A stretch of 35,585 nt of DNA from Thermomicrobiales bacterium. GTDB taxonomy: Bacteria > Chloroflexota > Chloroflexia > Thermomicrobiales > UBA6265. Of the stretch, positions 16,439-20,275 are shown piece after piece. The stretch lies in the NCBI GenBank assembly GCA_025928015.1, contig JAICKJ010000004.1:1-35585 (forward strand), written 5' to 3'. The position numbers were made by a program, and so were the translations under genes. The notes below the pieces were generated by a model. The model saw only the letters and a program-made list of their open reading frames with translations. It was not told the DNA's origin and did no database searches. Numbering within the stretch: position 1 is the first letter of the stretch; the number at the start of each line of letters is the position of its first letter.

Positions 16439-17614
16439 CTAGAAGCGATCCGGCGGGTAGATATACGGGAACCGTCGCGGAAAGAGTGCCACGAGGACGG
16501 ACGTGACGTCCGGCGGCAGGCCGAGGCGGGCCAGTTGGTCGGACGGTTGCAGGCCGCCGAAGACGAGGCGGGCCAGCTCACCCGGACTGATGGCGGCCCG
16601 CAATGCGGGCCCATCCTCGCTCCCCTCGACGACGCGCGCGCGGCCGGGACCGAGGCGCAGCCGCGCGCGGTCCTCGCCAGAATCGAAGACGAGATCGCCC
16701 TGGTAGGTGGATCCCGCCTGGGTCCAGACCCGTTCCAGCTCCGGCTGGATCGCCCGCATCAGCGCGGCGACGCCGGTGACGCGGCCCATGAACTCGCCGT
16801 CGCGGCTCGGACGCCGGATGAGGAGGGAGGTGCGGAGCTTGACGGCGAGTCCGAGTGGCCCCTCGTCGGGTATCCCGAGCTCGATCACGTCGGCCGCGCG
16901 TTCGGTCGCCCAGGCGGCGCAGAGCGCCAGCACGGCGTCGGCCCCGTCGGCTTCACGGGCGAATGCCTCCGCCAGCTTGAGGCCGCCGGGCATGTAATTC
17001 TCCCACTGGCGCAGCCACCAGAACGAGCTGCCGCGCCAGGCGTAGCCGCCAATCGCGCCGTCCGGATCGACCGCGACCCGGCATTCGTCGGCGCCGCGCT
17101 CGACCTGCCCACGCAAGGCCGCCCAGGCGCCGCGACCCGACGGCCGCACGACCGCCGCGGTCGCGGTGGCCGTCGCCGCCTCGTAGATCGCCCGGATGGC
17201 GCCGAGGTCGCCCCCGGCCGCGGGCCGCGCGCTCCAGCCCGTTGGCATCGCCGGGGCGTCGCCCAGCTCCAGCCGCAGCACGGTCTCCGGCCCGAGGGTC
17301 GCGTAGCCGTATTTCGGGTAGAAGTCCTGGATGCCGTAGAGCATCGTGACCGGGGCGTCGCCCTCGCGCATGCGCTGGACAGCGGCCTCCATCACCCGGC
17401 GCGAGTAGCCGCGGTGGCGCAGGTCCTCCGGCGTGGCGACGTCGCCGATGCCGTCCATCCGCAGCGTCGCGAGGCCGTAGCGCAGGGTGAAGGGCACGAT
17501 GAAGGCGCGGCTCGCCTCGCGGTCGCCGAGGTAGAGCGCGGTGCGGGTCGAGCCATCCGGCTCCGGGGTGAAGCGCAGCTCGGGGGCGACATCGGGCGCA
17601 TCGATGGTCGGCAT
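16439..17614 (-). CDS. GNAT family N-acetyltransferase (Eis-like, two GNAT domains plus C-terminal SCP-like domain)
   Basis: ATLRMDGIGDVATPEDLRHRGYSRRVMEAAVQRMREGDAPVTMLYGIQDFYPKYGYATLGPE matches the Eis-type pattern. Confidence 0.85.
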   Translation of the reverse strand: MPTIDAPDVAPELRFTPEPDGSTRTALYLGDREASRAFIVPFTLRYGLATLRMDGIGDVATPEDLRHRGYSRRVMEAAVQRMREGDAPVTMLYGIQDFYPKYGYATLGPETVLRLELGDAPAMPTGWSARPAAGGDLGAIRAIYEAATATATAAVVRPSGRGAWAALRGQVERGADECRVAVDPDGAIGGYAWRGSSFWWLRQWENYMPGGLKLAEAFAREADGADAVLALCAAWATERAADVIELGIPDEGPLGLAVKLRTSLLIRRPSRDGEFMGRVTGVAALMRAIQPELERVWTQAGSTYQGDLVFDSGEDRARLRLGPGRARVVEGSEDGPALRAAISPGELARLVFGGLQPSDQLARLGLPPDVTSVLVALFPRRFPYIYPPDRF

Positions 17615-17632: not shown

Positions 17633-20275
17633 TTACCAGGTCGAGGCGGTGGTGCCTTCGTAGACGATATCGCGGCAGCGGGCCTCGATCTCGTTCGGGT
17701 CGCAGGCGACCCGGGCCAGCCCGGTTTCGCAGGCCGCCTGGGCGACGGCGGCGGCGACCTTGCCGGCGACGCGCAGATCGAGGCTGTCCGGGATCAGGAA
17801 CTCGGGCGAGAGCTGATCGGGCGTCACCAGATCGGCGATGGCGTGGGCGGCGGCGGTTTTCATCTCGTCGTTGACGCCGGCCGCCTTGACGTCCAGCGCG
17901 CCCCGGAAGACGCCCGGGAAGGCGAGCGAATTGTTGATCTGGTTCGGGTAGTCGCTGCGGCCGGTCGCGATGGCCAGCGCGCCGGCCTTGCGCGCCTGCT
18001 CGGGCAGGATTTCCGGCATCGGGTTGGCGAGCGCGAAGACGATCGGCCGCGGTGCCATCGACGTGATCATCTCCATCGTGAAGGTGCCGGGCCCGGAGAG
18101 CCCGATCAGGACATCCACGCCGGCGACGACGTCGGCGAGGCTGCCTTCGACCGCGTCCCGGTTGGTCACCTCGGCGATGGCCTGTTTGGAAGCATCCATG
18201 TGCTCGGTCCGGCCGGCGTAGATCGCGCCGTGCCGGTCGCAGAGGATGACGTCGTCGACCCCGAGCGCGAGCAGCAGCTTGGCGACGGCGACGCCGGCCG
18301 AGCCGGCGCCATTGATGACGACCTTGAGCTCGCCCAGCTCGTTGCCGCGCAGCTTGGCGGCGTTGATCAGACCGGCCGCGACGACGATCGCCGTGCCGTG
18401 CTGGTCGTCGTGGAAGACCGGCATGTCGAGCGCGGCCCGCAGCTTCGTCTCGATCTCGAAGCAGCGCGGGGCGCTGATGTCCTCCAGGTTGATGCCGCCG
18501 AAGGACGGCGCGATGGCGCTGACGATGCGCACGATCTCGTCCGGGTCGCGGGCGGCGAGACAGATCGGGAAGGCCTCGACGCCGGCGAGCGACTGGAAGA
18601 GCACGGCCTTGCCCTCCATCACCGGCAGCGCCGCCTGTGGCCCGATATCACCCAGGCCGAGCACCGCCGAGCCGTCGGTGACGATGGCGACGAGGTTGCC
18701 CTTGGCGGTCAGCTCGGTGACCTTGGCGGGGTCGGCCTTGATGACCTGGGCGGGCAAGAGCGCCTTGGGTGGCAGGTGGAGTAGGTTGAGGATGTGGTGG
18801 TCGCGCACCGGGATCTTGCTGCGGATTTCGAGCACGCCGTGGTGTCGCCTGCGCAGGTCGATCGCCTCGTCGTGGAGGTTCTTCGCCGCCACGCGCACGC
18901 TCGGCTTGGCCGGCTCCAGCCGCCCCTCGTAGACGAAGCGGCGGGTGTTCTCGGCCACGGTCTCCGGCGAGACGTCCCGGCCGGCCTCGCCGGTCTCCAG
19001 CGCGCCGCGGACGACGGCGGCGGCGATGGCCGGGGCGACCCGGAAGTCGAAGATGCGGGGCACGATGTGGTCGGCGTGCAGCTCGTCGGGCTCGACCATG
19101 TCGGCGAGCGCGCGGGCGGCGTACAGCAACATGCGGAGGCGGATGTTGCGTGCCCGCGAGGCGAGCAGCCCGCGAAAGAAGCCCGGAAAGACGAGCGAGA
19201 CGTCCATCGTGTTCTGGTAGTCGGAGCGACCGGTGGCCACGACCCGGGCGCCGCCGGCCCGGGCGGCTTCGGGCGAGATCTCCGGCTGTGGCACGGCGAG
19301 CGCGAAGACGATCGGGTCGGGCGCCATCTCGCGGACCATGTCGTCGGTGACAATATCGCCGGTCGAGAGGCCGATGAAGACATCGGCGTGGCGCAACATC
19401 GCCTTGAGCGACCCCTTGCGCTGCTCGTGGTTCGTCTCCTTGGCGACGTAGGACTTGGCCCAGTTCATTCGCTCGGGCCGATAGCGGTAGATGGCGCCGG
19501 CGCGGTCGCAGACGACGAGCCGGCGGACGCCGGCGCGGGTCAGCAAGCGGGCGACGCCGATGCCGGCGATGCCGGCGCCGCTGATGACGACCGAGACGTC
19601 CTCCAGCCGCTTCTTCGTTACCTTCAGGGCGTTGTAGAGGGCGCCGAGGACGAGGATGGCGGTGCCGTGGTGCTGGTTCGAGAAGATCGGGACGTTACAG
19701 GCCTTCTCCAGCTCGTCGGCGATGGAGAAGGCGCGCGGGGTCGAGATGTCGTCGAGGCAGATGGCGCCGAAGGTCGGGGAGATGGCGAGGCCGGTCTCGA
19801 CGATCTCGCTCACCTCGGTCGTGGCGAGGCAGATCGGCATGGCGTCGATGCCGGCGAACGTCTTGAACATGACGCTCTTGCCCTCGGCGATCGGGATTTC
19901 CGCCTCGGGCGGCCCGCCCTCGCGGCCGAAGAGATCGGAGCCATCGGAGAGGATGGCGACGGTGTTGCCACGGCAGGTGAGATCGAACGATTCGAGCGGG
20001 TCTTCCTTGATCGCGAGGCAGGCCTCGGCGACGCCCGGCGTATAGACGAGCGAGAGGATGGCGCGGTCGCGGATCGGCACCTTGCTGCCGACGCCGATCA
20101 GGCCCTGATAGCGGCGGCGGTAGTCGAGCCCTTCATCTGAAAGGTCGAGCGCCGGCACGGCGGCGCCGTCGACTGCGGCCCGGGCGTCGTTCCGCCCGCC
20201 GTTGACTGCGCGGAGACGCACCGGCGAGGAGGCTGTGGCGGCGGTTGCCGCGCCCGATGGTTTGCCGTTGGTCAT
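17633..20275 (-). CDS. Tandem malic enzyme: two fused malic (malate oxidoreductase, decarboxylating) modules
   Basis: N module (~18925-20275): IPIRDRAILSLVYTPGVAEACLAI, EGKSVMFKTFAGIDAMPICL, CLDDISTPRAF, IFSNQHHGTAI, GAGIAGIGVARLL. C module (~17633-18900): IPVRDHHILNLLHLPPKALLPAQ, EGKAVLFQSLAGVEAFPICL, NLEDISAPRCF, VFHDDQHGTAI, GAGSAGVAVAKLL, ALANPMPEI, GRSDYPNQINNSLAFPGVFRGALD. Start MTNGKPSG at 20275. Confidence 0.92.
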   Translation of the reverse strand: MTNGKPSGAATAATASSPVRLRAVNGGRNDARAAVDGAAVPALDLSDEGLDYRRRYQGLIGVGSKVPIRDRAILSLVYTPGVAEACLAIKEDPLESFDLTCRGNTVAILSDGSDLFGREGGPPEAEIPIAEGKSVMFKTFAGIDAMPICLATTEVSEIVETGLAISPTFGAICLDDISTPRAFSIADELEKACNVPIFSNQHHGTAILVLGALYNALKVTKKRLEDVSVVISGAGIAGIGVARLLTRAGVRRLVVCDRAGAIYRYRPERMNWAKSYVAKETNHEQRKGSLKAMLRHADVFIGLSTGDIVTDDMVREMAPDPIVFALAVPQPEISPEAARAGGARVVATGRSDYQNTMDVSLVFPGFFRGLLASRARNIRLRMLLYAARALADMVEPDELHADHIVPRIFDFRVAPAIAAAVVRGALETGEAGRDVSPETVAENTRRFVYEGRLEPAKPSVRVAAKNLHDEAIDLRRRHHGVLEIRSKIPVRDHHILNLLHLPPKALLPAQVIKADPAKVTELTAKGNLVAIVTDGSAVLGLGDIGPQAALPVMEGKAVLFQSLAGVEAFPICLAARDPDEIVRIVSAIAPSFGGINLEDISAPRCFEIETKLRAALDMPVFHDDQHGTAIVVAAGLINAAKLRGNELGELKVVINGAGSAGVAVAKLLLALGVDDVILCDRHGAIYAGRTEHMDASKQAIAEVTNRDAVEGSLADVVAGVDVLIGLSGPGTFTMEMITSMAPRPIVFALANPMPEILPEQARKAGALAIATGRSDYPNQINNSLAFPGVFRGALDVKAAGVNDEMKTAAAHAIADLVTPDQLSPEFLIPDSLDLRVAGKVAAAVAQAACETGLARVACDPNEIEARCRDIVYEGTTASTW

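Follow-up and report, generated by a model that had tools for sequence, protein, structure and literature searches.

A tandem malic enzyme of Thermomicrobiales predicted to build one composite active site from two diverged modules

Malic enzymes (MEs) carry out metal-assisted oxidation of malate, decarboxylation and a tyrosine-assisted tautomerisation of enolpyruvate. In the short enzyme EhME, the monomers swap their Tyr and Lys motifs: Tyr65′ acts at Lys120 and Asp193 of the other chain, with 2.8 Å between Lys120 NZ and Tyr65 OH across chains, the β1 strand pairs across the dimer, and the entangled interface is common to prokaryotic MEs (PMC11944484). The crossover region of MaeB gives Y52′ to the opposing active site (PMC7902834), and in the large metazoan MEs, which are not swapped, every monomer has a site of its own (PMC11944484). 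Here we describe a bacterial protein that very probably joins two short MEs in one chain as an intramolecular pseudo-dimer, with a single working composite site per chain in which the N module donates its Tyr to the C module.

The DNA analysed (the window) is a stretch of 35,585 nucleotides from a Thermomicrobiales genome. The tandem ME gene, identified by its ORF, translation, Pfam matches and orthologs, occupies 17633..20275 on the minus strand, where a single unbroken frame encodes 880 amino acids followed by a stop; an in-frame ATG lies upstream and would give 918 amino acids if the start were placed there. Pfam finds the malic and Malic_M domains twice each, forming two malic/Malic_M pairs, so that the PF00390-then-PF03949 order of short prokaryotic MEs is present twice. 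The preliminary description had reported one uninterrupted ORF with two full ME modules, which the 880-residue translation and the domain pairs bear out, and each of the motifs it quoted is found at the codons it gave. The N module (18911..20140, residues 46-455) and the C module (17651..18877, residues 467-875), both on the minus strand like every feature below, are joined by a linker (18878..18925, residues 451-466) that forms a loop of lower model confidence.

The matches of this protein in the PDB are short MEs (E 1e-81 to 1e-126), the closest being 5CEE, 2A9F, 1WW8, 1VL6 and the ME half of MaeB, and the PDB search found no solved chain with the tandem architecture. No NCBIfam model matched above its cut-off: PRK12861, a test for the hybrid MaeB type, gave 632 bits against a cut-off of 1178, and PRK13529, a test for the large eukaryotic type, also scored below its cut-off. 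A phosphotransacetylase (PTA) family was not among the Pfam matches. The neighbouring genes in the window encode a GNAT protein, an uncharacterised ORF of 163 amino acids, an inositol monophosphatase family protein and a glucosamine-6-phosphate isomerase family protein. The GNAT (Acetyltransf_9) ORF, at 16439-17614 on the minus strand, starts 18 bases past the ME stop on the same strand, and the two may form an operon.

Neither module holds the complete catalytic set (Tyr, Lys, Glu-Asp, Asp-Asp, Asn and Asn-Asn), which on sequence comparison is complete only across modules, as the N-module Tyr plus the remainder from the C module. In the N module, the predicted Tyr donor, YTPGV (20030..20044, residues 78-82, with Tyr78 at 20042-20044) is present in 52 of 52 aligned orthologs and is predicted to enter the C-module site. 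The metal/malate site of this module is itself degenerate. Metal motif 1, NLEDI in active MEs, reads CLDDI (19745..19759), and metal motif 2, FHDDQHGTA in active MEs, reads FSNQHHGTA (19658..19684); in the alignment, Val328 (19292..19294; ALAVP) replaces the malate-binding Asn of ALANP, and Asp-Val (19199..19204) replaces the Asn-Asn of QINN. Lys133 (19877..19879), at the base position of this predicted dead site, is Lys in 49 of 52 orthologs, with Arg, Val, Ala or Asn in some relatives.

The predicted working site takes its Lys and its metal-, malate- and nucleotide-binding residues from the C module: Lys556 (18608..18610), the predicted catalytic base that corresponds to Lys120 of EhME; NLEDI (18476..18490); FHDDQ (18401..18415), with both Asp residues; the malate-binding Asn751 of ALANP (18023..18025); and Asn781-Asn782 of QINN (17930..17935), each conserved in 52 of 52 orthologs. 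YTPG is replaced by HLPP (18767..18778, residues 500-503, with His500 at 18776-18778), which is predicted to face the dead N site. The Tyr of a short ME serves the partner chain, and for this reason the pattern reads as one site left untouched (N Tyr with the rest from C) and one dismantled (C Tyr with the rest from N). Novelty, which the preliminary description saw in the split of functions between modules, is therefore confined to the fusion with one site discarded; donation of the Tyr in trans is already normal in short MEs.

We examined the conservation of both sites in an alignment of 52 tandem ME proteins (A2). All nine residues of the composite site (Tyr78 of the N module and Lys556, Glu598, Asp599, Asp623, Asp624, Asn751, Asn781 and Asn782 of the C module) were identical in 52 of 52, a count that is not one of independent cases because the orthologs are related. 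At the opposite site (the C-module Tyr and eight N-module residues), all nine positions were variable or lost and the site was intact in 0 of 52: the first Asp of metal motif 2, which tunes the base, is replaced by Asn in 51 proteins and by Thr in one, and the malate Asn is kept in 2 of 52, the last Asn in 1 and the Lys in 49. A further 21 tandem proteins, 20 of them from genomes of the Desulfobacterota phylum and one from a distant Chloroflexota family, gave the same picture at the level of sequence rather than measured geometry, with the composite site intact in 21 of 21 and the N-module metal/malate/Lys set in 0 of 21; three of these are identical to A2 members and most of the others share ≤62% identity with A2. 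In one of the 21 (L160), the N module retains its Tyr but has other residues in place of the Lys, the malate Asn and both metal motifs.

Decay of the dead site is graded, with FHNDQ in Nitrospinota, Nitrospirota and some Proteobacteria, FNNHG in Desulfobacterales and FSNQH in Thermomicrobiales. Orthologs with a full catalytic set in both modules, which would have made the lesions private to this strain, were sought among the 52 aligned and the 21 further proteins and none was found. A two-site tandem ancestor was likewise sought among distant members (G151, G152, G347 and the Desulfobacterota set) and not found; even in the least decayed of these, the first Asp of metal motif 2 is replaced and the C module lacks YTPG. 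One Chloroflexi metagenome-assembled genome (MAG) carries two adjacent tandem MEs (L041:1-4729, G151 contig C80, the contig that also holds L128), the second of which, cut by the contig end, shows even greater degeneration of its N module (TALSCYPNQIVAE) and carries Phe at the C-module Tyr position.

AlphaFold2 modelling, suggested in the preliminary description, packs the two modules of the tandem protein (A2, 841 residues) together as one unit with a mean pLDDT of 93.4 and a pTM of 0.92, and with that pTM the relative placement of the modules is confident. The complete 387-residue chain of 5CEE, a swapped-dimer ME, superposes on the model at 1.6 Å (TM 0.96), compared with an r.m.s.d. of 5.4 Å or more for the large, non-swapped plant and human MEs; the tandem protein thus does not match the large eukaryotic type, with its non-swapped monomer fold and about 550 amino acids. 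A β1 strand is present in both modules (21-25 and 443-447, model numbering).

These observations lead us to propose that the gene product is a covalently linked pseudo-dimer of the entangled-dimer type of short ME, in which the Tyr-bearing helices α3-α5 of each module would pass into the other, as they do in two-chain short MEs. The N crossover segment would set Tyr78 beside Lys556 and the C-module residues for metal, malate and nucleotide, which are intact, giving one complete site predicted to catalyse the oxidative decarboxylation of malate to pyruvate; the mechanism is most likely ordinary ME chemistry, performed at a composite site. The reciprocal site, at which the C HLPP segment would meet Lys133 and the degenerate metal motifs of the N module, is predicted to be dead, leaving one working site per chain. 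The N module would then be retained as a scaffold that supplies the Tyr, and it may in addition be a regulatory half that binds a nucleotide. Against a fully dead second site, Tyr at the C position (47 of 52) and Lys at the N position (49 of 52) are kept more often than would be needed. We infer the contact between Tyr78 and Lys556, the ME activity, the single site per chain and the pairing within the chain from these combined lines of evidence.

Two tandem chains could instead intertwine as a homodimer, so that the composite site would combine the N module of the first with the C module of the second. Ordinary short MEs form dimers or tetramers (PMC11944484), the same chemistry and conservation would be expected under either arrangement, and pTM does not discriminate between pairing within a chain and pairing of two tandem chains. 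However, AlphaFold2 packs both modules of a single chain as a unit at the pTM of 0.92 given above, and the linker is about 16 residues long; we therefore regard pairing between chains as unlikely.

If the crossover helices of one module serve the other, then constraint on them should track the state of the partner, and we compared near-invariant columns in the 47-residue crossover segment with those in the remaining 322 columns of each module. The crossover was over-conserved in the N module (17/47 versus 46/322, odds 3.4, p = 6e-4), under-conserved in the C module (7/47 versus 97/322, odds 0.41, p = 0.036) and neutral in 39 single MEs (9/47 versus 63/322, odds 0.97, p = 1), and the N and C modules differed from each other (z = 3.9, p = 1e-4), with all p-values serving as guides because columns drawn from related sequences lack full independence. 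In a model of the C module alone, the β1 strand was absent and the crossover had a pLDDT of 40-64, versus about 90 in the tandem; residues 20-42 fell below 50 and the core exceeded 90. In these models, the loss of order in the C crossover without the N module is what would be expected of a segment that needs that module. The intramolecular pseudo-dimer put forward in the preliminary description, with donation of Tyr by the N module to the C metal/malate site, is thus supported by the structures of short MEs, by the invariance of the composite site (52 + 21 orthologs) against the decay of the other site, by the reciprocal conservation of the crossovers and by AlphaFold2.

The same data bear on whether the C module might be self-sufficient, in cis or as a C:C homodimer, with His500 or the Tyr of YLPP as a substitute and the N module as a dead regulatory domain and nothing else. 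The C-module Tyr position (A2 column 461) is Tyr in 47 of the 52 aligned orthologs, His in 3, Cys in 1 and Phe in 1, so a C:C pair would usually have a Tyr side chain, and dead fused domains are known to turn into regulators. We nevertheless consider this improbable: the C position accepts four different residues and the TPG that follows is lost in every ortholog, whereas the N YTPGV is invariant in 52 of 52; the over-conserved part of the N module is its crossover segment; and the crossover is disordered in the model of the isolated C module. His500 was rejected as a conserved substitute for Tyr, and an earlier suggestion that His replaces Tyr in the C module does not hold across the family; judged from the alignment, the change to His is a local oddity rather than a conserved feature. 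Retention of the C-module Tyr in most orthologs, despite the loss of TPG and the predicted dead partner site, may reflect a structural role.

Under the proposed pseudo-dimer, the N module could have a second function. In its Rossmann motif (residues about 230-257), the GxG and the acidic residue after β2 are invariant in 52 of 52 orthologs, a signature that suggests that nucleotide binding may have been kept without catalysis. Because the dead site retains this dinucleotide-binding signature and usually the Lys, it is possible, though we propose it tentatively, that the N module has become a built-in allosteric sensor of NAD(P) or of some metabolite, shifting the donated Tyr into or out of the single working site.

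To assess how widespread the architecture is, we investigated its phylogenetic distribution. The tandem ME, of ~840 amino acids, is not private to the window genome but occurs throughout Thermomicrobiales: 53 of 61 genomes of the order had a match, and the matches listed were all the tandem protein or fragments of it, except for a second ME of the window genome itself. Two more families of the class have it (G151 and G152); the other matching families have single MEs. At E ≤ 1e-220, it was found in 27 of 199 sampled genomes of the Desulfobacterota-type phylum of G506, in 14 of 399 Chloroflexota, and in 3 of 151, 1 of 150, 6 of 96 and 6 of 78 genomes in the phyla of G521, G519, G517 and G515, respectively. 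An N-module profile matched proteins in MAGs labelled Methylomirabilota/NC10, Thermodesulfobacteriota, Nitrospinota, Nitrospirota, Gemmatimonadota, Anaerolineae and Pseudomonadota, as well as in isolates such as Thermalbibacter longus and Thermomicrobium sp. CFH 73360. Of the 20 carrier genomes tested, 19 showed no ME of this family other than the tandem protein (E ≤ 1e-60).

The second ME of the window genome (L002:1483-2916, minus strand, contig C1) is an ordinary single-module enzyme of 477 amino acids with an ACT-like N-terminal extension. Such a single-module ME is absent from the other sampled genomes of the order, and that of the window genome may be horizontally acquired or a contaminant of MAG binning. 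In L029 (G030 contig C9), the tandem ORF is split over three frames; the breaks may be genuine or may come from frameshifts introduced in sequencing or assembly.

In a module tree (n = 101), a quick search in which the single MEs were all from Chloroflexota, the N modules grouped together (SH-aLRT 99), as did the C modules (99), and both stood apart from single MEs (96). This topology fits a single event of duplication and fusion, with later spread; a recent local duplication was rejected, since the N and C modules form two well-supported groups, each with all sampled phyla. Two adjacent single MEs in G409 (L159), considered as an unfused pair, were also rejected, as both cluster with ordinary single MEs. 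The dN/dS values were 0.01-0.12 for the N module and 0.03-0.12 for the C module, plus 0.24 for the latter in the pair formed by the window and L079; the N module is under purifying selection, as is the C module. Conservation of both architecture and lesions in orthologs, together with low dN/dS, rules out a chance or damaged gene, including a private pseudogene produced by frameshift or decay. That the tandem protein no longer decarboxylates malate, having been diverted to another reaction or to binding or regulation, is the least probable reading of all, for although the N module differs greatly from every active ME and the activity of the tandem protein is only predicted, the C module keeps all eight catalytic residues other than Tyr without variation, nearly all carriers tested show no further ME of this family and both modules are under purifying selection.

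The tandem ME appears to be a natural, obligate single-site form of an enzyme that is known elsewhere as an entangled homodimer with two sites. It offers a handle on whether the sites of short MEs must cooperate (half-of-sites behaviour), on the folding of an interlocked dimer whose halves are covalently joined, and on the retention of a pseudo-enzyme half as a residue donor. It also carries a warning for annotation: tandem proteins resemble ordinary MEs in motif searches, and single-module constructs should be inactive. Nothing relevant emerged from the literature on tandem, duplicated or pseudo-enzyme MEs, in which subscription journals were covered in part, and a fused single-site pseudo-dimer of ME is apparently undescribed.

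Among known systems, the plant α/β NAD-malic enzyme heteromers are likewise two diverged ME paralogues that cooperate after duplication; unlike the tandem ME, they are encoded by separate genes, are of the large eukaryotic type and have two subunits that are both described as catalysing (PMC7573226). The MaeB hybrid MEs (6ZN4, 6ZNG and 8JZO; PMC7902834) have a multi-domain chain of similar length to the tandem protein and resemble its predicted arrangement in their swapped ME dimer, with Tyr (Y52′) donated to the opposing site, but their second half is a phosphotransacetylase-like acetyl-CoA sensor and both ME sites are intact, whereas the second half of the tandem protein is another ME module. 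The 477-residue single-module ME of the window genome is a short ME like the tandem modules but has all motifs in one chain, and presumably forms two equivalent sites per homodimer. Closest are EhME (3NV9; PMC11944484), the Phytoplasma AYWB ME (5CEE), Thermotoga TM0542 (1VL6) and Pyrococcus PH1275 (1WW8), which have the same fold, the same catalytic motifs and the crossover donation of Tyr to the partner site that is predicted for the tandem protein. Those short MEs are homo-oligomers of ~390-490-residue chains with equivalent sites, whereas in the tandem ME the modules are fused and one of the two sites has, on our reading, been abolished.
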